A stretch of 64,000 nucleotides of DNA. Origin: Flagellimonas aequoris (GTDB lineage Bacteria > Bacteroidota > Bacteroidia > Flavobacteriales > Flavobacteriaceae). The first letter of the stretch is position 1, and every line of letters begins with the position of its first letter. This document shows, one piece after another, positions 6,054 through 18,408 of this stretch. Under the pieces are notes generated by a model. That model had not been told where the DNA came from. It worked only from the letters and a program-made list of their open reading frames with translations, and did no database searches. Location of the stretch: assembly GCF_003584165.1 (NCBI RefSeq), contig NZ_QXFJ01000030.1, forward strand, positions 124,001 through 188,000, read 5' to 3'. A program made the translations under genes and the position numbers.

Positions 6054-6473
6054 CTAAAATCTTATGGAGAGCTCTAGGTCTTCATTCCCTACCTCGAACT
6101 TGGAGGCGGTAAAACTCGGTGGACCATAAGACATATCATTCCCGGACATGCCATAACTTTCCTTGGGCATCCCGTTGGCCTCGTAATCCATTCGATTGTT
6201 TTCATTGGCATCGTGTAGGGCCAAAATAGCATAGGTGCCAGGGGCTACGTTGGTAAAAGTGAGTACCACTTTCCCATTCTCAATTTTGCTTTCTTGGTTT
6301 TGCACACCGGGTCCTTTCATGAAAGTATCCTCGGTATGAAGGCCGGCCAATACCTTTCCTTCGTTGTTGGAAATGTTATCGATGGTCACGGTAATCTTGG
6401 TGCCGGTACTTTCCTGGGCCATGGCAACAAGGCTTACGAATAAAAAACTCAATGCTAGTGTTACAGTTTTCAT
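6054..6473 (-). CDS. DUF2141 family exported protein
   Basis: 139 residues from the ATG at 6473, chosen because it opens a clear signal peptide (MKTVTLALSFLFVSLVAMAQ, cleavage after AMA). The mature part is one beta-sandwich domain of the DUF2141 type, with conserved features VAPGTYAILALHDANENNRM and NGMPKESYGMS. Family members are small secreted or periplasmic proteins common in Bacteroidota and proteobacteria, without a proven function. The gene is monocistronic between the oxyR region and the TonB-dependent receptor, with its own terminator. Confidence 0.87.
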   Translation of the reverse strand: MKTVTLALSFLFVSLVAMAQESTGTKITVTIDNISNNEGKVLAGLHTEDTFMKGPGVQNQESKIENGKVVLTFTNVAPGTYAILALHDANENNRMDYEANGMPKESYGMSGNDMSYGPPSFTASKFEVGNEDLELSIRF

Positions 6474-6591
6474 AGGGTTTGTTTTTGATGTTTTTGTTGC
6501 CACAAATCTCGCATGCAACCTCTTCTTTAAAAATTACAATCTACCGAATTGTCAATTTTAGGGTCTGAACTGTAATGGGAAAATTGGCGTT

Positions 6592-6662
6592 CCAATTCAT
6601 CACAAAAAATCAACAGTTGGGTATTTCCTATTGGTGCGGCAAATAGGGTCTGGTCAATTTTG
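6592..6662 (+). promoter_or_regulatory. LytTR-type double box and promoter upstream of the TonB-dependent receptor (copy A)
   Basis: Two 9-bp half-sites, CCAATTCAT (6592-6600) and ACAGTTGGG (6613-6621), are separated by a 12-bp spacer ending AAATCA. The second box starts exactly 42 bp before CAATTTTG (6655-6662), a plausible Bacteroidota -7 element (TAnnTTTG-like). The start codon follows 23 bp later. Spacing and sequence match copies B (13732) and C (15918). The second box fits the published LytTR half-site pattern [TA][AC][CA]GTTN[AG][TG]. Confidence 0.75.
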
Positions 6663-6685
6663 CGGCAACAATCAAATGAACAGTC

Positions 6686-8848
6686 ATGAAAAACATTATT
6701 ATCGCATTCGTACTTTTTTTACCACTAGGATTCCTATCGGCCCAGACCATTGTATCGGGAACCGTTACCGATAACAAGAAAGTCCCCATCGAGGGTGCCA
6801 ATGTATATTTGGAGGGCACTTATGATGGAGCCTCTACCGATAAGGATGGTAAATTTACTTTTGAAACAGAGGAAACAGGCACCCAAACCTTGGTGATTTC
6901 CATGTTATCCTACGAGCCTCATTACGAGATCGGTGACGTAACTTACTTCAAGGATTTGAAGATCCAATTGGCGGAAGCCATCAATTCCCTTTCGGGTGTC
7001 ACCTTGACCGCCGGAACCTTTGAGGCAGGTGATAATTCCAAGGTTTCTGTTTTAAAACCACTGGATATTGTGACCACGGCAGGGGCAGCTGGAGATTTTG
7101 TGGCGGCTCTCCAAACCTTGCCCGGCACCACAACGGTCAATGAAGACGGCCGTTTGTTCGTTAGGGGAGGGTCTGCCAACGAGACCCAGGTATTCATTGA
7201 TGGCCTTCGGGTATTCCAACCCTTCAGTGCCACCGCCAACAATACACCCACACGTGGTAGGTTTTCACCATTTCTTTTTAAAGGCATCACTTTTAGTACA
7301 GGGGGCTATTCCGCGGAGTATGGACAGGCGCTTTCCAGTGTATTGTTATTGAACACCTCGGATGTTCCGGATCAGGAAAAAACCGATATTTCGATCATGT
7401 CGGTCGGTGCCGGTTTGGGCCATACTGAAATCTGGGGAGACCAATCCCTAAGTTTGAACACTTCGTACCTCAATCTGGCCCCCTACGAAGCCTTGTTGCC
7501 ATCCACAAACGGTGTTAACTGGAAAAGTCCGTATGAATCTTTTTCGGGTGAGGCGGTATTCCGCAGCAAAGGGGAAAAGAGTATGTTCAAGCTTTACACC
7601 GGTTTCAACCATTCCAATTTAGACATAGAACAAGAAGATATCAATTATACTGATTATGTTCGTTTTCAACTGACCAATAATAACCTTTACTTTAACTCTT
7701 CCTATAAATATTATTTTCAGAATGATTGGAGCTTGACCAGTGGCGCCAGCATCGCCTGGGATACTAACGACATTGGTATTGAAGGTGATAAAGTTGATAC
7801 AAGGGAGACGTCATCGCACATCAAAATAAAGGCCAGAAAAAACTTCAGTAGTAGGTTTGATCTTAATTTTGGTGCAGAGGTTTTCATGTCAAAATACGAT
7901 CAGGGCTATACCGATTTTGAAGGAACCGACTTTAATGCCGGATACGACGAAAACCTTTGGGCGGGGTTTATGGAATCCGATATTTTCTTGAGCAATAAAC
8001 TGGCCTTGAAGTTGGGCGTTAGGGGAGAGCAGAGTACCCTTTTGGATGAGTTCAACATATCCCCACGTGTAGCATTGGCGTATAAACCAGGGGAGTTCGG
8101 GCAGTTTTCGTTGGCCTACGGGGATTTTTACCAACGCCCCAATTCCGATATTGTAAAGTTTGACAGTAATCTGCAATTTGAGAAAGCTTCCCACTATATT
8201 TTGAACTACCAATATGTGGGGAATGGGAAAACGTTCCGTGCCGAAGCGTATTACAAAGATTATGGCCAATTTGTGAAGTACAACACGAATATGCCAGAGT
8301 TTAACTCGCTTTACACAAATTCCGGCAACGGTTATGCCAGTGGATTGGACCTGTTCTGGAGAGATAACAAGAGTGTGGAGCACCTGGATTATTGGGTTTC
8401 CTATTCCTATTTGGATACGGAAAGGAACTATGCGAATTTCAGGGAAAGTGCTACACCCAATTTTGCTTCTAAATACAATCTATCTGTAGTAACGAAGTAT
8501 TGGGTGGATAAACTGAGGTCACAGGTGGGATTTTCCTATTCCTATGGTTCGGGAAGGCCATACAATAACCCTAATAGCGCTGCATTTATGGCAGAGAAAA
8601 CACGTTCTTACAACAATCTAAGTTTCAATTGGGCCTATTTGATCGACCAACAGAAAATCCTGTATTTTTCGGTCAGTAATATGTTGGGGTTCAATAATGT
8701 AAGTAACTACCAATATGCTGATACCCCAAATATGGACGGTGTCTATAATAGACGTGCCATTACCCCTCCGGCCGACAGTTTCTTTTTTGTGGGATTCTTT
8801 TGGACCATCAGTTCGGACAAGAAGAGCAATCAGTTGGACAATCTATAG
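6686..8848 (+). CDS. TonB-dependent outer-membrane receptor
   Basis: 720 residues. Signal peptide (MKNIIIAFVLFLPLGFLSAQ), then a carboxypeptidase-like regulatory domain at about residues 22-105 (VSGTVTDNKKVPIEGANVYL, the usual Bacteroidota N-terminal extension). A plug domain at about 115-235 contains LPGTTTVNEDGRLFVRGGSA, and a beta-barrel runs to the C-terminus. The plug has the GGS-ETQVFIDGL and STGGYSAEYGQALSSV motifs of this receptor class. It imports an unknown substrate across the outer membrane using TonB energy. No SusD partner is adjacent, so a SusCD-type glycan system is unlikely. The upstream LytTR-type double box suggests control by the two-component system at 14.5-18.4 kb. Confidence 0.92.
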   Translation: MKNIIIAFVLFLPLGFLSAQTIVSGTVTDNKKVPIEGANVYLEGTYDGASTDKDGKFTFETEETGTQTLVISMLSYEPHYEIGDVTYFKDLKIQLAEAINSLSGVTLTAGTFEAGDNSKVSVLKPLDIVTTAGAAGDFVAALQTLPGTTTVNEDGRLFVRGGSANETQVFIDGLRVFQPFSATANNTPTRGRFSPFLFKGITFSTGGYSAEYGQALSSVLLLNTSDVPDQEKTDISIMSVGAGLGHTEIWGDQSLSLNTSYLNLAPYEALLPSTNGVNWKSPYESFSGEAVFRSKGEKSMFKLYTGFNHSNLDIEQEDINYTDYVRFQLTNNNLYFNSSYKYYFQNDWSLTSGASIAWDTNDIGIEGDKVDTRETSSHIKIKARKNFSSRFDLNFGAEVFMSKYDQGYTDFEGTDFNAGYDENLWAGFMESDIFLSNKLALKLGVRGEQSTLLDEFNISPRVALAYKPGEFGQFSLAYGDFYQRPNSDIVKFDSNLQFEKASHYILNYQYVGNGKTFRAEAYYKDYGQFVKYNTNMPEFNSLYTNSGNGYASGLDLFWRDNKSVEHLDYWVSYSYLDTERNYANFRESATPNFASKYNLSVVTKYWVDKLRSQVGFSYSYGSGRPYNNPNSAAFMAEKTRSYNNLSFNWAYLIDQQKILYFSVSNMLGFNNVSNYQYADTPNMDGVYNRRAITPPADSFFFVGFFWTISSDKKSNQLDNL

Positions 8849-9271
8849 TTATTGCTGCATTTTAAGGTAATAATCCACGGAATGTTTTCCCGACCCATAA
8901 ATAATGAAGAACAGACAGATGATAAGTGCAACGATGGCCAAAACCAAGTTGGAAACATGCATCGTACCCAGAAAATTGGTAAGGATGGCCCCAAATAAAA
9001 TTGGTAATTGGGCAATAGTGGCCCAACGGGTCAAGAGTCCGATCACTATTAAAAATCCACCCACAAAATGGGCAGGTGCAATGTAGTGCAATATGAGCAT
9101 TCCTCCTGGTAGGCCTTCAAAAGGTCTGGCCATTTCAGCCATTTCATTATAGTTGGTCATCAGTTCCGTTCCTTTTATAAAAAGGAAAATGCCAAGGGCT
9201 ATGCGGAACACATCCAAGGAATAATAGGTATGTGCGTTGGCCCATTTGTTCAGGTTTTTGACTGTCTCCAT
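8849..9271 (-). CDS. DoxX family membrane protein
   Basis: 140 residues with four predicted transmembrane helices (about residues 20-35, 60-82, 85-105 and 108-130). DoxX features are a first helix ending FIKGTEL, LHYIAPAHFVGGFLIVIGLLTRW in the second segment, and a third helix with GAILTNF. DoxX proteins are small inner-membrane proteins; some associate with quinol oxidases or thiol redox enzymes, but most are uncharacterised. The stop codon abuts that of the convergent receptor gene with no spacing. No redox partner is next to it, so no specific role is proposed. Confidence 0.85.
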   Translation of the reverse strand: METVKNLNKWANAHTYYSLDVFRIALGIFLFIKGTELMTNYNEMAEMARPFEGLPGGMLILHYIAPAHFVGGFLIVIGLLTRWATIAQLPILFGAILTNFLGTMHVSNLVLAIVALIICLFFIIYGSGKHSVDYYLKMQQ

Positions 9272-9407
9272 GGGTATTTTATTTTAGTTGTGTGATTTTA
9301 AGTTACTCATTTTAAACGAAGTGTAAAAATAAAAAACGCAAAATCCCCTAAAACATATAGGAAAAGTAGTATTTATCGTGGTTTAATAAAAAGCGGTATA
9401 CAATGGT

Positions 9408-9887
9408 TTATGCTTTGTTGAGCAGTAATTCCATCTGTATATCGCTTCGTTCATAGGGTGAGCTAGCACCGATCATTTCCACAAACCCGAGTTTCTGGTA
9501 AAGGGACAAGGCTGGGGCCAGGATTCGGTTGCTTTCCAAAAACAATTTCTTCGCTCCCATGGATTTGGCCTTTTCTATAATATGCAGTCCCAATAACTTG
9601 CCAATGCCCTTTCCCTGGGCCTTTGGCGACACCCCCATTTTGGCCAACTCAAAGTCATACTCCTTACGCTGACTGGGAATAAGCGCACAAACACCAACGA
9701 CCTCTTCTCCCATGAGGGCAACGGCAATATAGCCGCCTTTATCCAGAATGTATTCCTTGGGATGGTTCAGTGAAATATGGTCCATCTCTTCCATTTTGAA
9801 ATATTTGGTGATCCATTCTTCGTTCAACCTTCGGAAATCATCCTTGTGGGCATCGGAATAGGGTGCAATGGAAATGATGGCTGGCAT
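9408..9887 (-). CDS. GNAT family N-acetyltransferase
   Basis: 159 residues. The acetyl-CoA binding core is clear: LAKMGVSPKAQGKGIGKLLG matches motif A (V-x-P-x-x-Q/R-G-x-G-I/K-G) at about residues 83-102. The C-terminal LFLESNRILAPALSLYQKLG (motif B) is also typical. The protein is cytoplasmic and single-domain. It transfers an acetyl group from acetyl-CoA to an unknown amine. The gene is monocistronic with 136 bp separating it from the DoxX gene; nothing nearby points to a substrate. Confidence 0.88.
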   Translation of the reverse strand: MPAIISIAPYSDAHKDDFRRLNEEWITKYFKMEEMDHISLNHPKEYILDKGGYIAVALMGEEVVGVCALIPSQRKEYDFELAKMGVSPKAQGKGIGKLLGLHIIEKAKSMGAKKLFLESNRILAPALSLYQKLGFVEMIGASSPYERSDIQMELLLNKA

Positions 9888-10145
9888 GACTTTTTGATTT
9901 GTATCTGTAGTTCAAAATTAAACCGAAATTGGAGGTGATGCTCAATTTTCACATCCTGAATGTGTTAAATAATAAAATCATCGTGCGGTTCAACGAAAAA
10001 ATTGGCCTATGGCCGATAATTTACTTAATATTGCATTACATTTAGTAATAAAACTCTTACAAGTCCCAAATCTTGCTAATGAGACCAAACAACAAATATC
10101 AGCCTATCCCAAACAGGCATTTTAACCTACTTAATCCAATCGGCT

Positions 10146-11942
10146 ATGGATATAAAACTACTTCTATTTTTCAAAAAGTTACCCCACGGACGTGTTGAAA
10201 GAGCACTGTTTCCTCTAATGGTATGCTTGCTCTTGGGGTTGAACTCCAAAGCACAGGAAACCAATCCTTACGTGAGTTATGATGTTCCTTTTCAAAATTT
10301 GTTGAAATTCAACAGGTTTTTGATCAACCCTACCTTTTCTGCTGTTAGGGAAGACAAATCCTATGTGAACCTTTTCCACCGCAGTCAAAGTGCCGCATTT
10401 GATAACAACCGTCAAAATTATTTTTTGAGCTACAGCGGTAGGTTGAACGATATGGTGGGGATTGGATTTAGCCTCTACAATCAGCAGGAAGGCGTTATCT
10501 CCAACCTGGGCGTTATGGCCAACTATTCCCATGGCATTAAATTGGGCAAAGAGAGCAGCCTTACCTTCGGGGTTAACATTCCCTACTACGTGAGCAGCTA
10601 CGATCCAAGTAGGGCCGTGACTTTGGAAGAAGATCCGTTGTTGGATGATGCTACTGAAAGTTCCATCATTTCCTTTCAACCTGGATTGAACCTATCCCTA
10701 GGGAAGTTTGATTTTGGTGTGTTCGCCCAGAACTTGGTGGATTACAACATCAAGTCCGGGAAATCTTTAACGGCTTTGGACGACAAAACCTTCTCGGGAC
10801 ATATCCAATACACCTATGAATTCGAAAATGGCTACGGTATTTTTGAGGATGGCCGTTTGTTGCCACTCGCAAGGGCTCGGTTTGAAGGAAACAACGACCC
10901 CGTTTTTGGAGGGGGAATCATTTTGGACCTCCCTAAATTGGGATGGTTACAAGGAGGGTATGACCAGTTTTACGGAGCTTCCGCAGGAGCAGGTTTCAAT
11001 TTGAACAGAAGGCTTTCCTTTGGGTACAATTTTGAAAAAAACCTGAGCAACAGTATTGCCAATTTGGGGGTTACCCATGAAATATCCATTGCCTATACCT
11101 TTATTCCCAATCTTTCCAAAAACACCTTCATCGTTGATGATGAAGAGGAAAACAAAGGAAAGAAACCTATTGATGGAACCCAAGTAGCCGATACCCAGGA
11201 TAAGGATGGAAAGGATGCTCAAAAAGGAAAATTGGATGTGCAGACTACCCTTAGGCCCAATAATAAAGAAGATTTGGCATTTTGGGAAGCGCAATTGGAG
11301 GAGTTGAAGGCCCAACAAGAAGATAACTATGCTGTTATCAATGAACTTGTTTATCGCATGGATTCCTTGGAAAAGAACAGAGAGAGGGATATGGAGAAAC
11401 GATTTGAAATGGTCATGCGCATCGTGAAAAGACATACGGGCAATACAACACCCGAAATAGAGGAGAAGGCCCAAAAACTTTATTTGGCGGATAGCAAAGA
11501 CCTGGATTCCATTTATGGTGCCATTGAAAGGTCCGCAGTGGCCGATAATGCCCGAAAGGCAAAGACATTAAAATCTATCGATGTTGCCAAAAAGAATGAA
11601 GGTGGTTTCCATGGAGGCGCTTACAAGCCCATTGAAAAATACATCAACTTGGATGGAGTGGGCCAAGGACATTACATTGTGGCCAATGTATTCAAGAATG
11701 AGACCTATCTCAAAAACTTTATGGCCAAGTTAAAGGCCCAAGGTATCGAGGCGCAATATTTCAAGAATCCGGATAATGGGTTAAACTATGTGTATCTCGC
11801 AAAATATCAGGAAAATGAGGATGCCTATGCTGCCTATCAATCCAAGATGAAGGGCAAATACACGGATGAGATGTGGATCATGCATGTGGAAAATCCAAGA
11901 TATTCCAACTGGGCCGACGCCATTTTTCAGGATATCGAGTAA
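10146..11942 (+). CDS. PorP/SprF-type outer-membrane protein with coiled-coil and SPOR-like tail
   Basis: 598 residues. The N-terminus carries a cleavable signal ending GLNSKAQ. Residues about 40-320 form a PorP/SprF-type beta-barrel (FLINPTFSAVREDKSYVNLF, then repeated G-x-x-F-S-L-Y / SHGIKLG strands). A charged D/E/K-rich linker follows (about 325-365), then a likely coiled coil (about 370-415). The C-terminal ~100 residues (GHYIVANVFKNETYLKNFMA and following) look like a SPOR-type peptidoglycan-binding module. PorP/SprF proteins work with the type IX secretion and gliding machinery, typically attaching one large surface adhesin. No such adhesin is adjacent here. The SPOR-like assignment is by pattern only. 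Confidence 0.83.
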   Translation: MDIKLLLFFKKLPHGRVERALFPLMVCLLLGLNSKAQETNPYVSYDVPFQNLLKFNRFLINPTFSAVREDKSYVNLFHRSQSAAFDNNRQNYFLSYSGRLNDMVGIGFSLYNQQEGVISNLGVMANYSHGIKLGKESSLTFGVNIPYYVSSYDPSRAVTLEEDPLLDDATESSIISFQPGLNLSLGKFDFGVFAQNLVDYNIKSGKSLTALDDKTFSGHIQYTYEFENGYGIFEDGRLLPLARARFEGNNDPVFGGGIILDLPKLGWLQGGYDQFYGASAGAGFNLNRRLSFGYNFEKNLSNSIANLGVTHEISIAYTFIPNLSKNTFIVDDEEENKGKKPIDGTQVADTQDKDGKDAQKGKLDVQTTLRPNNKEDLAFWEAQLEELKAQQEDNYAVINELVYRMDSLEKNRERDMEKRFEMVMRIVKRHTGNTTPEIEEKAQKLYLADSKDLDSIYGAIERSAVADNARKAKTLKSIDVAKKNEGGFHGGAYKPIEKYINLDGVGQGHYIVANVFKNETYLKNFMAKLKAQGIEAQYFKNPDNGLNYVYLAKYQENEDAYAAYQSKMKGKYTDEMWIMHVENPRYSNWADAIFQDIE

Positions 11943-11945
11943 TCC

Positions 11946-12557
11946 TTACTGGTTTTCCCCGCTCATTTTATGGGCGATGGCCTTGCTGCCCGAATCATCC
12001 CGTTCCTCTAGTTCGGAGATGATTTTTTGGTGGTCTTCGGGTCGGGTCTGCGAGAGTTTGTAAGTGGCCTGTATATCCGAAATTTGGATTCGAAAACCTG
12101 CAACCCCTTTTACCTGTCGTAATGTTTTGGGAGACATGTTGTCTAGTGAAATAGGATTTTTGGATCCCTTTTCATATCTGTCCACCAATTGGTACATGGA
12201 AGCCATGGTTTCCTCCTCGGACAACAGTTCCAATTTCCCATACACATGCACGGCGATGTAATTCCAGGTGGGCACTTCCTCTTCTTTGTACCAGGATGAA
12301 GAAACATAAGCATGTGGGCCATTAAAAATGCACAAAACCTCATTATCCGATACTAAATATTTCGATTGTGGATTGGCCTTGGCAATATGACCGACCAAAA
12401 TATCCCTCCCTTCAGCATCTGTTTCCAATTCCAGGGGTATATGGGTACCCCAGGGTTTACCGTCCACCACATTGATCAAAACGCCAAAACTATTGTCCTT
12501 TAGGAATTTCTTGATCTCGCCAAGGTCTTTGTTCTCGTAATAGGGTGGAATGTACAT
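11946..12557 (-). CDS. PaiB-like FMN-binding protein
   Basis: 203 residues from the ATG at 12557 (MYIPPYYE), which is where PaiB-family proteins usually begin. Recognised blocks are FGVLINVVDGKPWGTHIP, GHIAKANPQ, FNGPHAYVSSSWY and VPTWNYIAVHVYG, all characteristic of the FMN-binding split-barrel PaiB family. Bacillus PaiB is described as a negative transcriptional regulator of sporulation and protease genes, but the family fold is that of flavin-binding proteins and the regulatory role is uncertain outside Bacillus. The gene converges with the PorP/SprF gene, with 3 bp between the stops. Confidence 0.88.
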   Translation of the reverse strand: MYIPPYYENKDLGEIKKFLKDNSFGVLINVVDGKPWGTHIPLELETDAEGRDILVGHIAKANPQSKYLVSDNEVLCIFNGPHAYVSSSWYKEEEVPTWNYIAVHVYGKLELLSEEETMASMYQLVDRYEKGSKNPISLDNMSPKTLRQVKGVAGFRIQISDIQATYKLSQTRPEDHQKIISELEERDDSGSKAIAHKMSGENQ

Positions 12558-12613
12558 GGTTTGTGGCAATAAACAATTAAAATACAAACCACGAAGATCG
12601 GTTAAAATTGGAC

Positions 12614-12640
12614 ATAAAAAAAGCGGGACTTAAGTCCCGC
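12614..12640 (-). terminator. Terminator of the DUF4382 gene
   Basis: The palindrome GCGGGACTTAAGTCCCGC at 12623-12640 is followed on the minus strand by a run of seven T. It lies about 25 bp after the DUF4382 stop and before the PaiB-like gene. Confidence 0.9.
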
Positions 12641-12664
12641 TGCATGTATATATTTTGGGAAGCA

Positions 12665-13564
12665 TTAATTACCTTCTTCCATTGCTTCGGCCTCTAACAC
12701 AAAATCCTGTATGGTTTTGTTGCCGGCCACGATTTCCACTTCAAGGGTATCACTGTTCACATACCCGTTCAAGGAAGAATATACTTTGTAGGTTCCAGCA
12801 TCCAATCCCATAATGGCATAAGCCCCATCAATATCGGAAGCTCCGGAAGTAATGGGCTCTTCGTCCAAATTCATTACGGAAATCTGTGCATTTTCGAGGG
12901 CAACGGGTGTTTCACCGTCCATCGTCGTAACAAGACCACTCAAAGTTCCTGCCGTTGACAAATTACAAACTTTGATCACAGGCTTGAAATTGAATCCGGT
13001 GATGCCATCCACTTTGATGGTACTTCCTTTGGCCACAAAGGAACGGCTCACATCAAAATCCAACAAGAGATCACTGCTCAATCCACCGGCAACTGTCAGT
13101 GCAGGTTTAAAGAAGACTTTTATGCCCGTTTGTGAACCACTTGGCACGGTAAGATCAAAAGTACGTCCATCAGTTAAGACCACATTTACGCCTTTAACAT
13201 ACACCCTGATCAGGTCATAGGTGCCTGCTGGGACATCCAAATCTGCCAATTCTTCGGTTACACCATTGGTGAGATCCAAAAGGTTAACAGGGACTTCTTC
13301 TTCCATTAAGGTGATGAATGGATAGCCATCTTCTTCGCTATCACCTTCCACATCTTCATTTTCGCTGTCAACTAATCTTGCATCGACCTTGAAAACGGTC
13401 ACGTTGGCTTCGGCCACCATATCAAAAGGAAAAGGGGCATCCGTAAGTTGAAGTGTCAATCTGCCCATGGTGTCGCCATTTCCACCATTGCCAGAGTCAT
13501 TGGAACATCCAACAAAAACAAGCAATACAAGGCTCAATGCAAAATAAAAGATTTTCGTTCTCAT
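12665..13564 (-). CDS. DUF4382 lipoprotein with C-terminal carboxypeptidase-like domain
   Basis: 299 residues. A lipoprotein signal with lipobox FVGC (Cys at residue 20) is followed by a Gly/Asn-rich linker. A DUF4382 domain occupies about residues 33-195 (GRLTLQLTDAPFPFDMVAEA, VPAGTYDLIRVYVKGV). A smaller carboxypeptidase-regulatory-like beta domain lies at about 205-290 (SGLVTTMDGETPVALENAQI, DIDGAYAIMGLDAGTYKVYS). Both are common in Bacteroidota surface lipoproteins; neither implies catalysis. It is transcribed alone, divergently from the TPR-kinase operon, so its promoter shares the 13.57-13.83 kb spacer with LytTR box copy B. Confidence 0.87.
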   Translation of the reverse strand: MRTKIFYFALSLVLLVFVGCSNDSGNGGNGDTMGRLTLQLTDAPFPFDMVAEANVTVFKVDARLVDSENEDVEGDSEEDGYPFITLMEEEVPVNLLDLTNGVTEELADLDVPAGTYDLIRVYVKGVNVVLTDGRTFDLTVPSGSQTGIKVFFKPALTVAGGLSSDLLLDFDVSRSFVAKGSTIKVDGITGFNFKPVIKVCNLSTAGTLSGLVTTMDGETPVALENAQISVMNLDEEPITSGASDIDGAYAIMGLDAGTYKVYSSLNGYVNSDTLEVEIVAGNKTIQDFVLEAEAMEEGN

Positions 13565-13731
13565 AAATAAGGGGTTTTATTTAATAAAATGTGTAACTAT
13601 TTACGGGTAAAATGAAGATTCTGGGCGTAGAGCACCTCTTTTTTCGATAAAATACAGGTTTTATTATGATTTTATGTGTGAATTGTAAGAAACGTCTTAG
13701 GAATGATGAAGCACTAATTTTAGCCTTTGCA

Positions 13732-13802
13732 ACAGTTCATCCTGCCAAATCAACAGTTCGGTTATTCTTTGTTTTGATTATGCTGAGTCATGTTCAATTT
13801 TG
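13732..13802 (+). promoter_or_regulatory. LytTR-type double box and promoter upstream of the TPR-kinase operon (copy B)
   Basis: This is the best-conserved copy. ACAGTTCAT (13732-13740) and ACAGTTCGG (13753-13761) are direct repeats with a 12-bp spacer, and both satisfy the LytTR half-site consensus at every position. The second box starts exactly 42 bp before CAATTTTG (13795-13802). A TTTG at 13773-13776 could serve as the -33 element. The start codon at 13833 lies 30 bp past the -7-like element. Confidence 0.8.
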
Positions 13803-13832
13803 GACCATCAAATAATCATTAAAACAACAGTC

Positions 13833-14465
13833 ATGAAAAAACTGATAACACTTTTATTACTTATTGGCGCCTCAGTTGCCCAAGTACAAGCACAGGCCAA
13901 GGATCAATACACCAAAGGGATGGAAAAGGCCTTTGAACTTTGGAAAGACCAGAAAATTGTGGAAGCTTCCAACCTTTTTGAACGCATAGCCACTGCCGAA
14001 CCCGATAATTGGATTCCGTACTATTATGCCTCCCAAGTGAACACGGTCGCTTCTTTTGGGGAAAAGGATGAAGCGAAACTGAGTAAGCAATTGGAAAAGG
14101 CTAGGGAATTCGTGGATGTGGCCAAGGCCATTTCACCGGATAATCCTGAAATTTTGGTACAGGAAGCCTTGATCAATACGGCATGGATCGCTTTTGATGG
14201 GGCCACCTATGGCATGACCATGTCCCAAAAGAATGTACAATTGTACCAAAAGGCCTTGGAACTGGACCCGAACAATCCGCGTGTGGTTTTTTCCAAAGCG
14301 GAATGGGACATGGGTGCAGCACGGTATTTTGGTAAGGATACCGCTCCATATTGCAAGGATGTGGAAAGGGCCTTGGAACTTTTTGCTACCTTTAAATCCG
14401 ATACGCCATTTTATCCTTCTTGGGGCAAGGAAAGGGCAGAGCAGGTGTTGGCAGCATGTAAATAA
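13833..14465 (+). CDS. Exported TPR-like protein, first gene of the kinase operon
   Basis: 210 residues from the ATG at 13833, which opens a signal peptide (MKKLITLLLLIGASVAQVQA). The mature protein is helical with tetratricopeptide-like repeats, for example FERIATAEPDNWIPYYYASQ and YQKALELDPNNPRVVFSKAE (about residues 45-64 and 140-160). It should be periplasmic. Its stop lies 6 bp before the histidine kinase start, so the two genes are almost certainly cotranscribed from the LytTR-type promoter at 13.73-13.80 kb. A role as a periplasmic sensor or partner of the kinase is inferred from context only. Confidence 0.83.
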   Translation: MKKLITLLLLIGASVAQVQAQAKDQYTKGMEKAFELWKDQKIVEASNLFERIATAEPDNWIPYYYASQVNTVASFGEKDEAKLSKQLEKAREFVDVAKAISPDNPEILVQEALINTAWIAFDGATYGMTMSQKNVQLYQKALELDPNNPRVVFSKAEWDMGAARYFGKDTAPYCKDVERALELFATFKSDTPFYPSWGKERAEQVLAACK

Positions 14466-14471
14466 GACGTA

Positions 14472-15800
14472 ATGAAGCTTTTTTTAAAGGAACTTATAAA
14501 GTCGTTTTTAGTGGGGATTGCCATTTTTTTGGTAGTCCTCATTATTCTTTTCCTCAACGGCTGGGATTTTACCATGCAAGAATTGTGGACGGAGTTTTGG
14601 GAGAGCATGATTTTCTCCATGATCATCTATCTCTGTAATTCAGCCTCTTTCATTTTGCTGATGCGGAAGTATGACAAGGAATTATTCACCCGCAAGTATA
14701 TTGCCTATGGTATTCTGGGAAATATTATAGCTTCTATTATTGGTATTTTCCTTTCGCGTGTGGTGTTGAAGGTCATCATGTACAACATGTCTTTTGAAGC
14801 CTTTTTCACGTCCGAAAGACCACAGTATTATGTGAATACCTTCTTTATATCCATGGTGGTTGCGCTCTTGTTCTATGCGGCCTATTTCTATAAATACTAC
14901 AAAGAAAAGCAGGTAAAGGAGCAGAAGATTATCGCAGGTTCGGCTTCGGCACGATTTGATGCCCTGAAAAACCAATTGGATCCCCATTTTCTGTTTAACA
15001 GCCTAAATGTATTGACCAGTCTGATCGAAGAGGACCCAGATCAGGCCCAAAAATTTACCACATCGTTATCCAAGGTATATCGATACGTGCTGGAACAGAA
15101 GAACAAGGACTTGGTCACGGTGGATGAAGAGCTCAACTTTGCCCGCACGTATGTCCGTTTATTGAAGATGCGTTTTGAGGACAGTATCATTTTTGATATC
15201 CCTGAGAAATGCACCCAGCCCGATGCCAAGATAGTTCCACTTTCCTTACAGCTTCTGCTCGAGAATGCAGTGAAGCATAATGTGGTCACCAGTTCAAAGC
15301 CCCTTCATATTAAAGTATTTGAGCAGGGAGGCATGTTGGTGGTAAGCAATAATCTACAGGAAAAACAGGTGGTCAAGAAAAGTAGTGGTGTAGGGTTGCA
15401 GAACATCAGACAGCGATACCAGATATTAACGGATCGTGGAGTGATCATCAACAAAACCAATTCGGATTTCAGTGTTTCGCTGCCCATGCTCACCCAAAGA
15501 TATTCGGTGGTAGAGACCCAGCAGAGCTATATTGAGGAAAAGAGATATGCCAAGGCCAAAGAGCGCGTAAAGGCCATCAGGGACTTTTATGGAAACTTGA
15601 TATCCTATTGTATCGTGATTCCCTTCTTATGGTGGATCAATTTACGGACCACGGATTTTCTTTGGGCTTTTTTCCCTACCATCGGCTGGGGGTTTGGAGT
15701 GTTGGCGCACGGTATGGAGGCCTTTGGGTATAATCCGCTGTGGGGCAAGCGTTGGCAAGAACGTAAGATTCGGGAACTCATGGAAAAGGATGATTTTTGA
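14472..15800 (+). CDS. LytS-type sensor histidine kinase with fused C-terminal 2TM domain
   Basis: 442 residues. Four transmembrane helices occupy about residues 10-145, with little periplasmic sequence. A His_kinase domain follows: ALKNQLDPHFLFNSLN carries the phosphoacceptor His172, the N-box is LLLENAVKHN, and the G-box is GVGLQNIRQRY. After the ATPase end (VSLPML) an extra ~85 residues form a 2TM module (YAKAKERVKAIRDFYGNLIS ... FFPTIGWGFGVLAHGMEAFG ... NPLWGKRWQERKIRELM). That tail closely resembles the separate 2TM protein encoded next at 16019. The partner is presumably the LytTR regulator at 17653. The fusion means the kinase core is held at the membrane at both ends. Confidence 0.93.
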   Translation: MKLFLKELIKSFLVGIAIFLVVLIILFLNGWDFTMQELWTEFWESMIFSMIIYLCNSASFILLMRKYDKELFTRKYIAYGILGNIIASIIGIFLSRVVLKVIMYNMSFEAFFTSERPQYYVNTFFISMVVALLFYAAYFYKYYKEKQVKEQKIIAGSASARFDALKNQLDPHFLFNSLNVLTSLIEEDPDQAQKFTTSLSKVYRYVLEQKNKDLVTVDEELNFARTYVRLLKMRFEDSIIFDIPEKCTQPDAKIVPLSLQLLLENAVKHNVVTSSKPLHIKVFEQGGMLVVSNNLQEKQVVKKSSGVGLQNIRQRYQILTDRGVIINKTNSDFSVSLPMLTQRYSVVETQQSYIEEKRYAKAKERVKAIRDFYGNLISYCIVIPFLWWINLRTTDFLWAFFPTIGWGFGVLAHGMEAFGYNPLWGKRWQERKIRELMEKDDF

Positions 15801-15917
15801 TTTCAACTATCAACTATTAATCATCAATCATCAATCTTTCACCTTTGACACTTCACCCTTCACCCTTCACCTTTTACCCAAAAAACCTAAACCCTTGCCC
15901 ATTATCCTTCCTCCCAT
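15801..15917. repeat. Short-period intergenic tract after the kinase gene
   Basis: No gene is visible. The tract consists of degenerate 6-8 bp repeats: CAACTATCAACTATTAATCA-type words at about 15803-15832, then CACTTCACCCTTCACCCTTC-type words at about 15849-15877. It looks like the other short-period tracts at 0.2-0.35 kb and 51.6 kb. It ends where LytTR box copy C begins. Confidence 0.6.
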
Positions 15918-15988
15918 ACAACTCATCCCCTAAAATCAACAGTTCGAGAATCTACTTTTTCATAGGTGCTGCTTTCTATCGAATTTTG
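15918..15988 (+). promoter_or_regulatory. LytTR-type double box and promoter upstream of the 2TM-regulator operon (copy C)
   Basis: Half-sites ACAACTCAT (15918-15926) and ACAGTTCGA (15939-15947) are separated by 12 bp ending AAATCA. GAATTTTG (15981-15988) begins exactly 42 bp after the start of the second box. The 2TM start codon follows 30 bp later, the same distance as in copy B. The upstream half-site is degenerate but keeps the ACA..TCAT frame of copy B. Confidence 0.75.
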
Positions 15989-16018: not shown

Positions 16019-16297
16019 ATGGAAAATGTACAACAAGACAGTTATAAAAGGGCCAAAAAAAGGGTGTGCCATCTTAAGGCCTTTTACAATAGTTTGGTGG
16101 CCTATTGCATCGTGATTCCCGTGTTGGTCTACATCAACTACCACACCACCAGTTTCCCGTGGGCCATTTTTCCAACAGTGGGATGGGGGATGGGGCTTGT
16201 AAGCTTGTGGATGACCGCTAACGGCCGTAACCCGATATTTGGGAAAGACTGGGAAGAGCGAAAAATAAGGGAATTCATGAACAAGGAAGAATTTTAA
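16019..16297 (+). CDS. 2TM-domain protein 1
   Basis: 92 residues forming a single 2TM domain: an N-terminal amphipathic segment YKRAKKRVCHLKAFY, two hydrophobic helices (CIVIPVLVYI and FPTVGWGMGLVSLWM), and a basic tail NPIFGKDWEERKIREF. It is the closest relative of the tail of the upstream kinase; both share CIVIP, the TT-F-WA-FPT-GWG pattern and ERKIRE-M. It probably arose by duplication of that tail. It is the first gene after LytTR box copy C. Molecular role unknown; proteins of this family are found with LytS/LytTR systems in Bacteroidota. Confidence 0.9.
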   Translation: MENVQQDSYKRAKKRVCHLKAFYNSLVAYCIVIPVLVYINYHTTSFPWAIFPTVGWGMGLVSLWMTANGRNPIFGKDWEERKIREFMNKEEF

Positions 16298-16341
16298 CAA
16301 TCAGTATATTTAACAATTACATCCAATCAACAAACAACATC

Positions 16342-16644
16342 ATGGAAAATTCAAATAAAGAAAGTAAATACATTCGCGCCAAGGAGAGGGTGGATGAGCT
16401 TAAGAAGTTTTATGGTAACCTGACTTCCTATGTCCTTGTCATTTCCGCTTTGGCTTTGATCAACTACTACAGTAACGGCTTCGGCTACATGTGGTTCCTG
16501 TGGGCAGCCTTTGGATGGGGAATAGGACTTATTTTCCACGCCATCCGCGTCTTCGACCTTAACCCATTCTTTGGAAAACAATGGGAAAGGCGTAAGATCG
16601 AAGAATTTATGAAGGAAGAAGAAACAAACGATAAATGGAAATGA
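16342..16644 (+). CDS. 2TM-domain protein 2
   Basis: 100 residues. Same architecture as its neighbours: YIRAKERVDELKKFYGNLTS, a first helix YVLVISALALINYYS, a second helix around WAAFGWGIGLIFHAIRVF, then the conserved NPFFGKQWERRKIEEFM. A short acidic tail (EEETNDKWK) is added. The ATG at 16342 gives a start like that of gene 1 (MEN...). It lies 44 bp after 2TM-1. The next start codon is only 2 bp past its stop, indicating one transcript. Confidence 0.9.
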   Translation: MENSNKESKYIRAKERVDELKKFYGNLTSYVLVISALALINYYSNGFGYMWFLWAAFGWGIGLIFHAIRVFDLNPFFGKQWERRKIEEFMKEEETNDKWK

Positions 16645-16646
16645 TC

Positions 16647-16952
16647 ATGGAAAATTTTGACAACGACAAATACAAAAGGGCCAAGAAAAGGGTCGATGAG
16701 CTAAAAGGTTTTTACATACATATGAGCATTTATGTGGTGATCAACACCTTTATCTTGGTGAATATCTTCTTACGGACCGACAATTTCTGGCAATGGCCCC
16801 ATTTTGTAACTTTATTTGCATGGGGATTGGGATTGGCCTTCCATGGCATAAAAGTATTTGGGATCAACCCGTTCTTGGGAAAGGATTGGGAAGAACGGCA
16901 GATCCAAAAGTACATCGACAAAGACAAGAACGACACCGATAAATATCTATAA
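16647..16952 (+). CDS. 2TM-domain protein 3
   Basis: 101 residues from the ATG at 16647 (MENFDNDKYKRAKKRV), chosen because its paralogues also begin MEN-. ATGs at 16635 and 16641 are in frame and would overlap the preceding stop. The domain contains YKRAKKRVDELKGFYIHMSI, a first helix YVVINTFILVNIFL, a second helix LFAWGLGLAFHGIKVFG, and the tail NPFLGKDWEERQIQKYI. Inner-membrane location is expected, with both termini on the cytoplasmic side judging from flanking charges. Confidence 0.9.
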   Translation: MENFDNDKYKRAKKRVDELKGFYIHMSIYVVINTFILVNIFLRTDNFWQWPHFVTLFAWGLGLAFHGIKVFGINPFLGKDWEERQIQKYIDKDKNDTDKYL

Positions 16953-16961
16953 ACTCGAACT

Positions 16962-17294
16962 GTGGAAAATTTAGATGATAAATACGAAAGGGCTGCCAAG
17001 CGGGTTAAGGAGTTGAAAGGCTTCTACAGACACATAAAAATCTTTGTTTTGTTCAATGGGATATTGTATCTACTGAAAAGTGGCCTACTTAACCCTTTCA
17101 TGCCTGAGGGATTTCCAACAGAGCATTACTATTTTGACTGGGTAAACAGCAATGTATTTATTTGGGGGCTGATATTGGCCGTACACGCACTGTACACCTT
17201 TCGATATAAAATACCCTTCCTTCAAAAATGGGAAGAACGCCAGATTCAAAAATACATAGAGCGAGAGGATGAGGAAATGGGTAAATTTAAATGA
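16962..17294 (+). CDS. 2TM-domain protein 4 (GTG start)
   Basis: 110 residues beginning with GTG at 16962 (MENLDDKYERAAKRV...), which aligns with the MEN- starts of proteins 1-3; no ATG is better placed. The inter-helix loop is longer than in proteins 1-3 (NPFMPEGFPTEHYYFDWVNS region), the second helix is VFIWGLILAVHALYTF, and the NP-F-GK motif is reduced to IPFLQKWEERQIQKYI. It lies 9 bp after 2TM-3 and 9 bp before 2TM-5. The loop differences suggest divergence after duplication rather than recent copying. Confidence 0.88.
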   Translation: MENLDDKYERAAKRVKELKGFYRHIKIFVLFNGILYLLKSGLLNPFMPEGFPTEHYYFDWVNSNVFIWGLILAVHALYTFRYKIPFLQKWEERQIQKYIEREDEEMGKFK

Positions 17295-17303
17295 TCATCA
17301 AGG

Positions 17304-17642
17304 ATGAGTCCTATCACCACATATGAAACTGCAAGGAGACGGGTAGGGGCCATAAAGGGGTTTTATGTCCACTTGACCTTGTTCATTCTTGTCAGTGTCC
17401 TGATCTTGGCTTCCAAGGGAACTATATTGGAAGTGATGATCGAAAAGAACCTCGAGGTCAACCCCAATTTCGTGGCCTGGTTGGATTGGAACTTTATTGC
17501 GGTTATCCTCATTTGGGGAACGGTGATATTGATTCAGGGACTTGTGGTATTTGGTCGACCGTTGATCAAAAAATGGGAAAAAAGAAAAATCGAGGCATAT
17601 CTGAGAAAGGACAAAGATGGATCCTATACCAGAAAAAAATAA
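17304..17642 (+). CDS. 2TM-domain protein 5
   Basis: 112 residues and the most divergent member. It keeps YETARRRVGAIKGFYVHLTL at the N-terminus, two hydrophobic helices (LFILVSVLILAS and FIAVILIWGTVILIQGLVVF) and the basic tail KKWEKRKIEAYL, but lacks the NP-F-GK motif. The loop is about 25 residues longer than in protein 1. Its stop is 10 bp before the LytTR regulator start, so it is the last 2TM gene of the operon. Confidence 0.87.
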   Translation: MSPITTYETARRRVGAIKGFYVHLTLFILVSVLILASKGTILEVMIEKNLEVNPNFVAWLDWNFIAVILIWGTVILIQGLVVFGRPLIKKWEKRKIEAYLRKDKDGSYTRKK

Positions 17643-17652
17643 ACTATAGCAT

Positions 17653-18408
17653 ATGAATGTGATCATCATCGAAGATGAAAAACCGGCTGCGAGACGGTTG
17701 TCTAGATTATTGGCCGAACAGGATATCGAGGTTTCTACCATGCTCCATTCGGTGGACGAATCCATTGAGTGGTTCCAGAACAATCCGCACCCCGATCTTA
17801 TATTTTTGGACATCCAATTATCGGACGGACTTTCGTTCGAAATCTTTGATTTGGTCGAAGTGAAAAGTGCCATTATTTTCACCACTGCTTATGATGAATA
17901 TGCCCTCCAAGCTTTCAAGTTGAACAGCATCGATTACCTCCTTAAACCCATCGATGATGAGGAGCTTGAAAGTGCTGTAAAAAAGTACCGAAATTTTAAA
18001 CCGGAAAGCCAAAAAATATCGGTCGATTTCAACGACATAAAAAAGCTTTTGGTAAACCCTTTGGAGCGGGAATACAAAAAACGATTTACGGTAAGGGTAG
18101 GGCAACATTTAAAGATCATCAATGCTGATGATGTGGAGTGTTTTTATAGCGAGAACAAAGGTACCTATGCGGCCACTTCGGATGGCAGGAATTATTTGTT
18201 GGACACGACACTCGAGCAATTGGAGGAGGAGCTTTCCCCAGAAATGTTTTTTAGGGTGAGTCGAAAATTTTATGTGAACGTCAACCATATAGGAGACATC
18301 ATTTCGTACACCAATTCAAGGCTTCAAATTAAGCTAAATCGCTTTAATGAGCAGGAAATCATCGTAAGCAGGGAGCGCGTTAAGGATTTTAAGTTATGGT
18401 TGGAATAA
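17653..18408 (+). CDS. LytTR-family response regulator
   Basis: 251 residues. An N-terminal receiver domain (1-115) has the acidic pair in IIIEDEK, the phosphoacceptor Asp53 in LIFLDIQL, the Thr/Ala switch at FTTAY and Lys at YLLKPID. A LytTR DNA-binding domain spans about 145-251 (KRFTVRVGQHLKIINADDVE, FFRVSRKFYVNVNHI, IIVSRERVKDFKLWL). LytTR proteins bind pairs of 9-bp direct repeats with 12-13 bp spacing. Three such sites with an added fixed promoter spacing occur in this window, two of them in front of this very locus, so positive autoregulation is likely. The cognate kinase is encoded at 14472. Confidence 0.94.
   Translation: MNVIIIEDEKPAARRLSRLLAEQDIEVSTMLHSVDESIEWFQNNPHPDLIFLDIQLSDGLSFEIFDLVEVKSAIIFTTAYDEYALQAFKLNSIDYLLKPIDDEELESAVKKYRNFKPESQKISVDFNDIKKLLVNPLEREYKKRFTVRVGQHLKIINADDVECFYSENKGTYAATSDGRNYLLDTTLEQLEEELSPEMFFRVSRKFYVNVNHIGDIISYTNSRLQIKLNRFNEQEIIVSRERVKDFKLWLE

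Follow-up and report, generated by a model that had tools for sequence, protein, structure and literature searches.

A 64-kb stretch of the Flagellimonas aequoris genome (the window) carries four copies of a promoter module, three on the plus strand and a fourth on the minus strand, in which two 9-bp half-sites lie as direct repeats with a 21-bp period (12-bp spacer) and are followed by a -7 box. The half-site consensus is NCARYYCAK, 12 bp, ACARTTSRG, and the Bacteroidetes -7 promoter box stands exactly 33 bp farther on. Known LytTR sites, the pneumococcal ComE box among them, are built in the same way. We consider it very probable that the copies belong to a LytTR two-component regulon with positive autoregulation, in which a membrane histidine kinase (14472-15800) and a LytTR response regulator (17653-18408) would activate the four window promoters. 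Regulator binding, phosphorylation, activation, start sites and the signal are deduced here from the DNA sequence.

Site A (6592-6662, plus strand), before the gene for a TonB-dependent receptor (TBDR), has half-sites at 6592-6600 and 6613-6621 and the -7 box CAATTTTG at 6655-6662; its transcription start is predicted at about 6667. Site B (13732-13802, plus strand; half-sites 13732-13740 and 13753-13761; box CAATTTTG, 13795-13802) precedes genes for a TPR protein and the kinase, and site C (15918-15988, plus strand; half-sites 15918-15926 and 15939-15947; box GAATTTTG, 15981-15988) precedes an operon of 2TM genes and the regulator gene. Site D (6503-6573, minus strand; half-sites 6573-6565 and 6552-6544; box GAGATTTG, 6510-6503) lies before a DUF2141 gene and back to back with site A, their outer half-sites 18 bp apart. 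Re-reading of the sequence bore out what an earlier note on this DNA had described: the coordinates of copies A, B and C, their 21-bp period, AAATCA directly 5′ of each second half-site, (C/G)AATTTTG beginning at 6655, 13795 and 15981, which is 42 bases past the second half-site starts (6613, 13753 and 15939), and ATG codons 23, 30 and 30 bases beyond the box. All three copies counted there are present, but the count was too low, as the window holds four and a probable fifth lies just outside. The AATTTTG element at A, B and C fits the Bacteroidetes -7 sequence TAnnTTTG save for its first base.

Searches of the 4.24-Mb genome and its relatives show how specific this arrangement is. The pattern AAATCAACAGTT-37N-AATTTTG has three perfect genome matches, namely A, B and C, none at one or two mismatches and 12 at three, against four for its reversed control at up to three mismatches. 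With the complete pattern NCARYYCAK-12-ACARTTSRG-33-SANNTTTG, a consensus composed after sites from the genus had been seen, four matches were found at 0-1 mismatch, all in the window; a further one, 4.9 kb before the window, has two mismatches, and five have three; reversed, the same pattern had no genome match at up to three mismatches. Across the genus (Allomuricauda/Flagellimonas), each of the 40 genomes examined contains a match with at most one mismatch, and the reversed pattern is absent from all of them. The regulator has an orthologue, 88-96% identical, in 34 of the 35 other genus genomes searched, and the regulator region was analysed in 31 of these 34 (G200, G201 and G228 were omitted for short contigs or a gene near a contig end). 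At least one site was found in 30 of the 31 regions, before TBDR, TPR-kinase, 2TM-regulator or DUF2141 genes. A minus-strand copy before DUF2141 is seen not only in the window but also at L107 and L108; at L114, L115 and L136 a DUF2141 homologue precedes the TPR gene, and the site sits before that homologue. We also noticed paired module sites about 2.2 kb apart at G225:C43:10901-13225, on another contig, and at G260:C1:4305036-4307360, about 60 kb from the other two sites of that genome; these pairs possibly serve another receptor gene.

The layout extends through the Flavobacteriaceae. With one genome per genus, 142 of 199 match the full pattern at no more than one mismatch, and the reversed pattern matches in 0 of 199. 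When the repeat-to-box spacing was lengthened by one base, only two of the 199 genomes matched, equal to the reversed control of the shifted pattern. A looser pattern (second half-site plus box, two mismatches) matched 160 of the 199 but was set aside as uninformative, because its reversed control also matched many genomes. In a class-level scan of 395 genomes, 13 of 14 family members match, as opposed to four of 381 others, and the reversed pattern matches none; three of these four outside sites precede module homologues (a TonB receptor at L427 and L428, a 2TM-kinase-regulator operon at L436). The motif scan of this genome and its relatives that the earlier note had proposed has thus been run, and the spaced motif recurs upstream of genes in genus and family with reversed controls at zero.

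These searches bear directly on the idea that the copies reflect recent duplication, a mobile repeat devoid of any regulatory role, or coincidence in A+T-rich leaders. AAATCAACAGTT, which three copies have in common, is what one would expect of such an origin. The 33-bp stretches separating repeat from box, however, are dissimilar among the copies while their length is constant; the layout is found again in 142 of 199 genera, with the same genes at the loci examined and no matches in reversed controls. We regard this explanation as extremely improbable; chance and recent duplication in particular were rejected on the searches of genome, genus and family, with their reversed and shifted-spacing controls.

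Motif and kinase occur together. The kinase was found in 152 of the 199 family genomes, and comparison by hand of the two search tables gave 141 genomes with both, one with the motif only, 11 with the kinase only and 46, many of them small, with neither (Fisher 2e-33, uncorrected for shared descent). The earlier note had read the regulator as activating the TonB receptor, the TPR-kinase genes and its own 2TM operon; the comparative evidence supports LytTR-type sites at these three promoters, with a motif that tracks the kinase family-wide.

As an independent measure of spacing, a half-site matrix was trained on both half-sites from 70 sites of the genus, with the box excluded, and was tested on regions from 80 other-genus genomes. 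These came from the 151 other kinase-bearing genomes, mostly the best-scoring and away from contig ends, with six kinase-only genomes chosen on purpose. At a score of at least 13 the matrix gave 114 matches, in 79 of the 80 loci, and none in reversed sequences. A strict box,.A..TTTG, lies at offset +42 in 89 cases, and all other offsets from +20 to +67 total five; with any last base (.A..TTT.), the AnnTTT core occupies that fixed position in 109 of the 114, the start sites being predictions from sequence. Scored separately, the half-sites are 21 apart in 67 of 69 pairs. Over the whole window the four copies, which were among the 70 training sites, score 34.2, 29.4, 27.6 and 26.5, all before module genes; the runner-up scores 7.3, and the reversed window reaches no more than 14.2.

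The genes that follow the sites are also consistent. Lowering the score to at least 10 in the 80 family regions gave 119 sites, of which 102 lie no more than 160 bases, and 113 no more than 250 bases, from the start of a module homologue, where homologues of the window TPR, DUF2141, kinase and 2TM genes alone were considered; the regions extend 2.5 kb upstream of the kinase, and TBDR promoters therefore lie mostly outside. At 80 named loci (genus members included) with flanks of up to 10 kb, the first open reading frame (ORF) downstream of each site that reached 60 aa, whatever gene it was, was assigned to a gene class by tblastn or blastp to the window proteins. These loci yielded 180 sites in 76 of the 80, with the box present at 171 and nothing in the reversed control. 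Module genes follow 166 of the 180 sites: 2TM (56), TPR (36), TBDR (28), DUF2141 (26) and kinase (20, a class that includes 2TM proteins matching the kinase tail best).

The -7 box of the module mostly departs from consensus. Among the 70 genus sites its first base is C in 36, G in 33, A in one and T in none, in a search that permitted any base there; parts of the second half-site and of the box were fixed in that search and are invariant by construction, whereas box position 1 and the T at +19 were free. Of the 109 other-genus boxes, 83 have a base other than T first and a final G, 12 combine T with a final A, and eight deviate at both ends, and among boxes that begin with T the last base is A in 12 of 18 (Fisher 4.6e-7). 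The module box is mostly SAnnTTTG or TAnnTTTA. T as first base occurs in 4 of 125 module boxes, compared with 82 of 208 boxes that lie upstream of other genes in the same DNA stretches (p 1.5e-15). Off-consensus -7 boxes are expected at activator-dependent promoters; read as a weak core promoter, such a box would leave it to the activator to decide firing.

Other positions are conserved as well. An invariant T at +19 from the start of the second repeat (70 of 70) falls within a T-rich element at about -35, and in the sequence logo an A-tract lies between the two repeats and the expected start is mostly a purine. In Flavobacterium psychrophilum the -7 box lies at -12 to -5 (PMC9723704), which would put the repeats at about -75 to -67 and -54 to -46. 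The repeat then ends some 9-10 bp upstream of the -35 region, the position expected at activated promoters, as these are predicted to be. Some LytTR proteins do repress, CoxC for example from repeats overlapping the -35 box (PMC11347149), and the bound regulator could likewise be a repressor here, or its phosphorylation could relieve repression. We think this quite unlikely, as repeats that stop short of the -35 region, together with weak -7 boxes, form the layout of LytTR activators. A YATCAATAA-like stretch is also conserved at positions 53-61 from the start of the second half-site, about the expected transcription start, and could be an initiator or leader element.

Several observations weigh against activation of these genes by one regulator through one fixed geometry. 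In the genus regulator regions no site was found at L109, which lies on a short contig, and the search missed the sites of some genes elsewhere (no 2TM site at L121 and L135, no TPR site at L127 and L131). Nine of the 180 sites at named loci precede an ORF of no module class, and five precede no ORF. G006 is the sole family genome with the motif and no kinase, while 11 carry the kinase but lack the strict motif; in six such kinase-only regions that were fetched, a relaxed site is present in five, and L299 has no site, not even a relaxed one. Two natural sites have 34 rather than 33 bp between repeat and box; they may be genuine variants, since they lie about 3.5 kb upstream of their genome's kinase gene. 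The box, finally, is not always off consensus: full TAnnTTTG is present in 6 of the 109 other-genus sites, and the proposal that it never reaches consensus was dropped on this account.

The proteins encoded at the window locus fit a LytS/LytTR two-component system, with a regulator in which receiver and LytTR domains both score above cut-off and an adjacent membrane kinase of the PF06580 type. The regulator (17653-18408, plus strand; PF00072 E 2.9e-14, PF04397 E 9.7e-22) is the proposed site binder. The kinase (14472-15800, plus strand) has a LytS-type His_kinase domain (PF06580, E 3.6e-26) and a C-terminal 2TM domain (PF13239, E 4.4e-28), and its H172 and N265 are invariant in 17 aligned sequences; from gene adjacency, phosphotransfer from kinase to regulator is inferred. 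Upstream of the kinase lies the gene for a 210-aa TPR protein (13833-14465, plus strand; Pfam TPR models) that by eye seems to have a signal peptide. Five stand-alone 2TM-domain genes follow site C on the plus strand, at 16019-16297, 16342-16644, 16647-16952, 16962-17294 and 17304-17642 (PF13239, E 1.3e-31 to 1.4e-13), and form a diverged array (16019-17642) between kinase and regulator; the kinase is followed by one to seven stand-alone 2TM genes in all 80 family loci. The receptor (6686-8848, plus strand; 720 aa; PF13715, PF00593 and PF07715) has a carboxypeptidase-regulatory-like N-terminal domain. The DUF2141 gene (6054-6473, minus strand; Pfam DUF2141, E 6.8e-31) has an ATG at 6473, read from the sequence, 29 bases past its box; the ORF as listed starts at an upstream TTG, 6518. 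NCBIfam gave no above-cut-off match for the TonB receptor, TPR, kinase, three 2TM, regulator, DUF2141 or DUF2807 proteins, and among solved structures a match by sequence was found only to the receiver part of the regulator.

We propose that the membrane kinase (14472-15800) would sense an envelope signal and phosphorylate the regulator (17653-18408), which would dock as a tandem pair on the two 9-bp direct repeats. The docked regulator would recruit sigma-A RNA polymerase to weak, off-consensus -7 boxes that might fire little without an activator. Four promoters would respond: those of the TonB receptor, DUF2141, the TPR-kinase genes, and the 2TM array with the regulator. The outcome would be positive feedback, with the regulator raising its own and the kinase operons together with a receptor of the outer membrane and two proteins that are secreted or located in the envelope. 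The stand-alone 2TM proteins, which share the tail domain of the kinase, may modulate it.

A probable fifth target is a DUF2807 gene. A PspC gene and a DUF2807 (head GIN) gene flank the match at two mismatches (G000:C30:119049-119118, minus strand), 4.9 kb before the window, and a PadR-type gene is close by; Pfam confirms PspC, DUF2807 and PadR. Orthologues of the DUF2807 gene are present in all 40 genus genomes, and in all 30 whose upstream DNA was read the best repeat pair (scores 2.0-23.6; reversed control no higher than -8.9) is followed by a box at the module spacing. That box is GAnnTTT(A/G) in 27 and GAATTTC(A/G) at L402, L404 and L422. L142 and L435 are listed along with the PspC/DUF2807 LytTR-type site of the same spacing. 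A survey of phage-shock-protein (PSP) systems united DUF2807 and DUF2154 as ‘Toastrack’ and tied them to envelope-stress systems (PMC11237479), and for this reason we favour an envelope signal for the kinase.

The identity of the binding protein deserves separate consideration. Counting the regulator itself, 11 matches to it at E 1e-20 or lower occur in the genome, a further point against assigning the sites to this regulator, since another LytTR paralogue could bind them or several could share them. At the DUF2807 site, the half-site letters differ somewhat from those of the main sites, and blastp of the ORFs in 20 kb around it gave no regulator homologue. The main sites nevertheless flank and precede the regulator's own operon, 77 of 80 family loci have the regulator after the kinase, and outside the family the motif stands beside a related kinase and regulator in two of the four matching genomes (L436 and L428). 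We therefore consider binding by a paralogue unlikely and retain the regulator at 17653-18408 as the presumed activator.

The earlier note's statement that no published module has this form was too strong, as ComE and the LytTR Regulatory Systems (LRS) share the 9-bp direct repeats, the 12-bp spacer and a fixed distance of about 31-33 bp to the -10 box (PMC6001120, PMC6193735). The ComE box of pneumococcus and Streptococcus mitis, aCAnTTcaG-12-aCAgTTgaG, stands 31-32 bp from the -10 box in most promoters, and resembles the module in its near-identical half-site letters, 9-bp direct repeats, 12-bp spacer and fixed distance to the core promoter; ComE is known to activate its own operon and others, as we predict here from sequence (PMC6001120). 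Unlike ComE, the present system belongs to another phylum, has 33 bp to a Bacteroidetes -7 box that is mostly off consensus, and combines a kinase bearing a 2TM tail with a 2TM array and outer-membrane targets; no peptide pheromone gene was seen by eye. LRS sites likewise have 9-bp repeats, mostly with a 12-bp spacer, and strongly tend to end 10 bp before the -35 box; with a 6-bp -35 box and a 17-bp gap this amounts to 33 bp to the -10 box in several of the published rows, as here (PMC6193735). Membrane partner proteins and positive autoregulation, the latter proposed here, are further likenesses, whereas LRS pair a regulator with an inhibitory membrane protein and the system described here has a receiver domain and a histidine kinase (PMC6193735). 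Membership in the LRS was rejected because a histidine kinase is present; the membrane genes, moreover, lie before the regulator rather than after it.

Other LytTR systems share parts of the design. LRS-like operons of Bacteroides also place repeats upstream of a Bacteroidetes promoter (TGTA-19-TATCTTTG), but there the repeats are 11 bp long, differ in sequence and have an 11-bp spacer, and the operons have a membrane-anchored LytTR protein, a full-consensus -7 box and a DUF2154/NfeD partner (PMC6193735). BlpR promoters of Streptococcus pneumoniae likewise form a small local multi-promoter regulon with 9-bp tandem repeats, and differ in their bacteriocin targets, extended -10 box and peptide signal (PMC4739728). 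YpdA/YpdB of Escherichia coli comprises a LytS-type kinase, a LytTR regulator and direct repeats, but has a single target gene, other half-site sequences and a pyruvate signal (PMC4847170). In the open-licence PubMed Central literature, searched mostly by title and abstract, we found no description of a 2TM-LytTR system or of a LytTR site in Flavobacteriaceae, nor of this regulon, its site or an off-consensus -7 rule in that family.

These comparisons suggest that the distance between LytTR activators and the core promoter is nearly constant across phyla. On balance we lean towards the view that selection holds the module promoters one step off the sigma-A -7 consensus, with S for T at position 1 or A for G at position 8, so that firing would require the LytTR regulator to be docked at one exact distance. 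Such a lock on the core promoter, combined with the repeat geometry, would define a family-wide envelope regulon of the Flavobacteriaceae, with a docking geometry common to the LytTR activators of Firmicutes.

Promoters of Flavobacteriaceae differ from the textbook form and, to our knowledge, few transcription-factor sites have been defined in the family. The module provides a regulator with its consensus site, the exact distance for docking and a small core regulon to be looked for in about 140 genera, and a one-base change in the -7 box offers a simple test of how an activator may act on a Bacteroidetes core promoter. It also gives a regulatory context to 2TM, DUF2141 and TPR proteins of unknown role, and a testable gene circuit that would join a sensor system to outer-membrane genes in a poorly studied group of bacteria.

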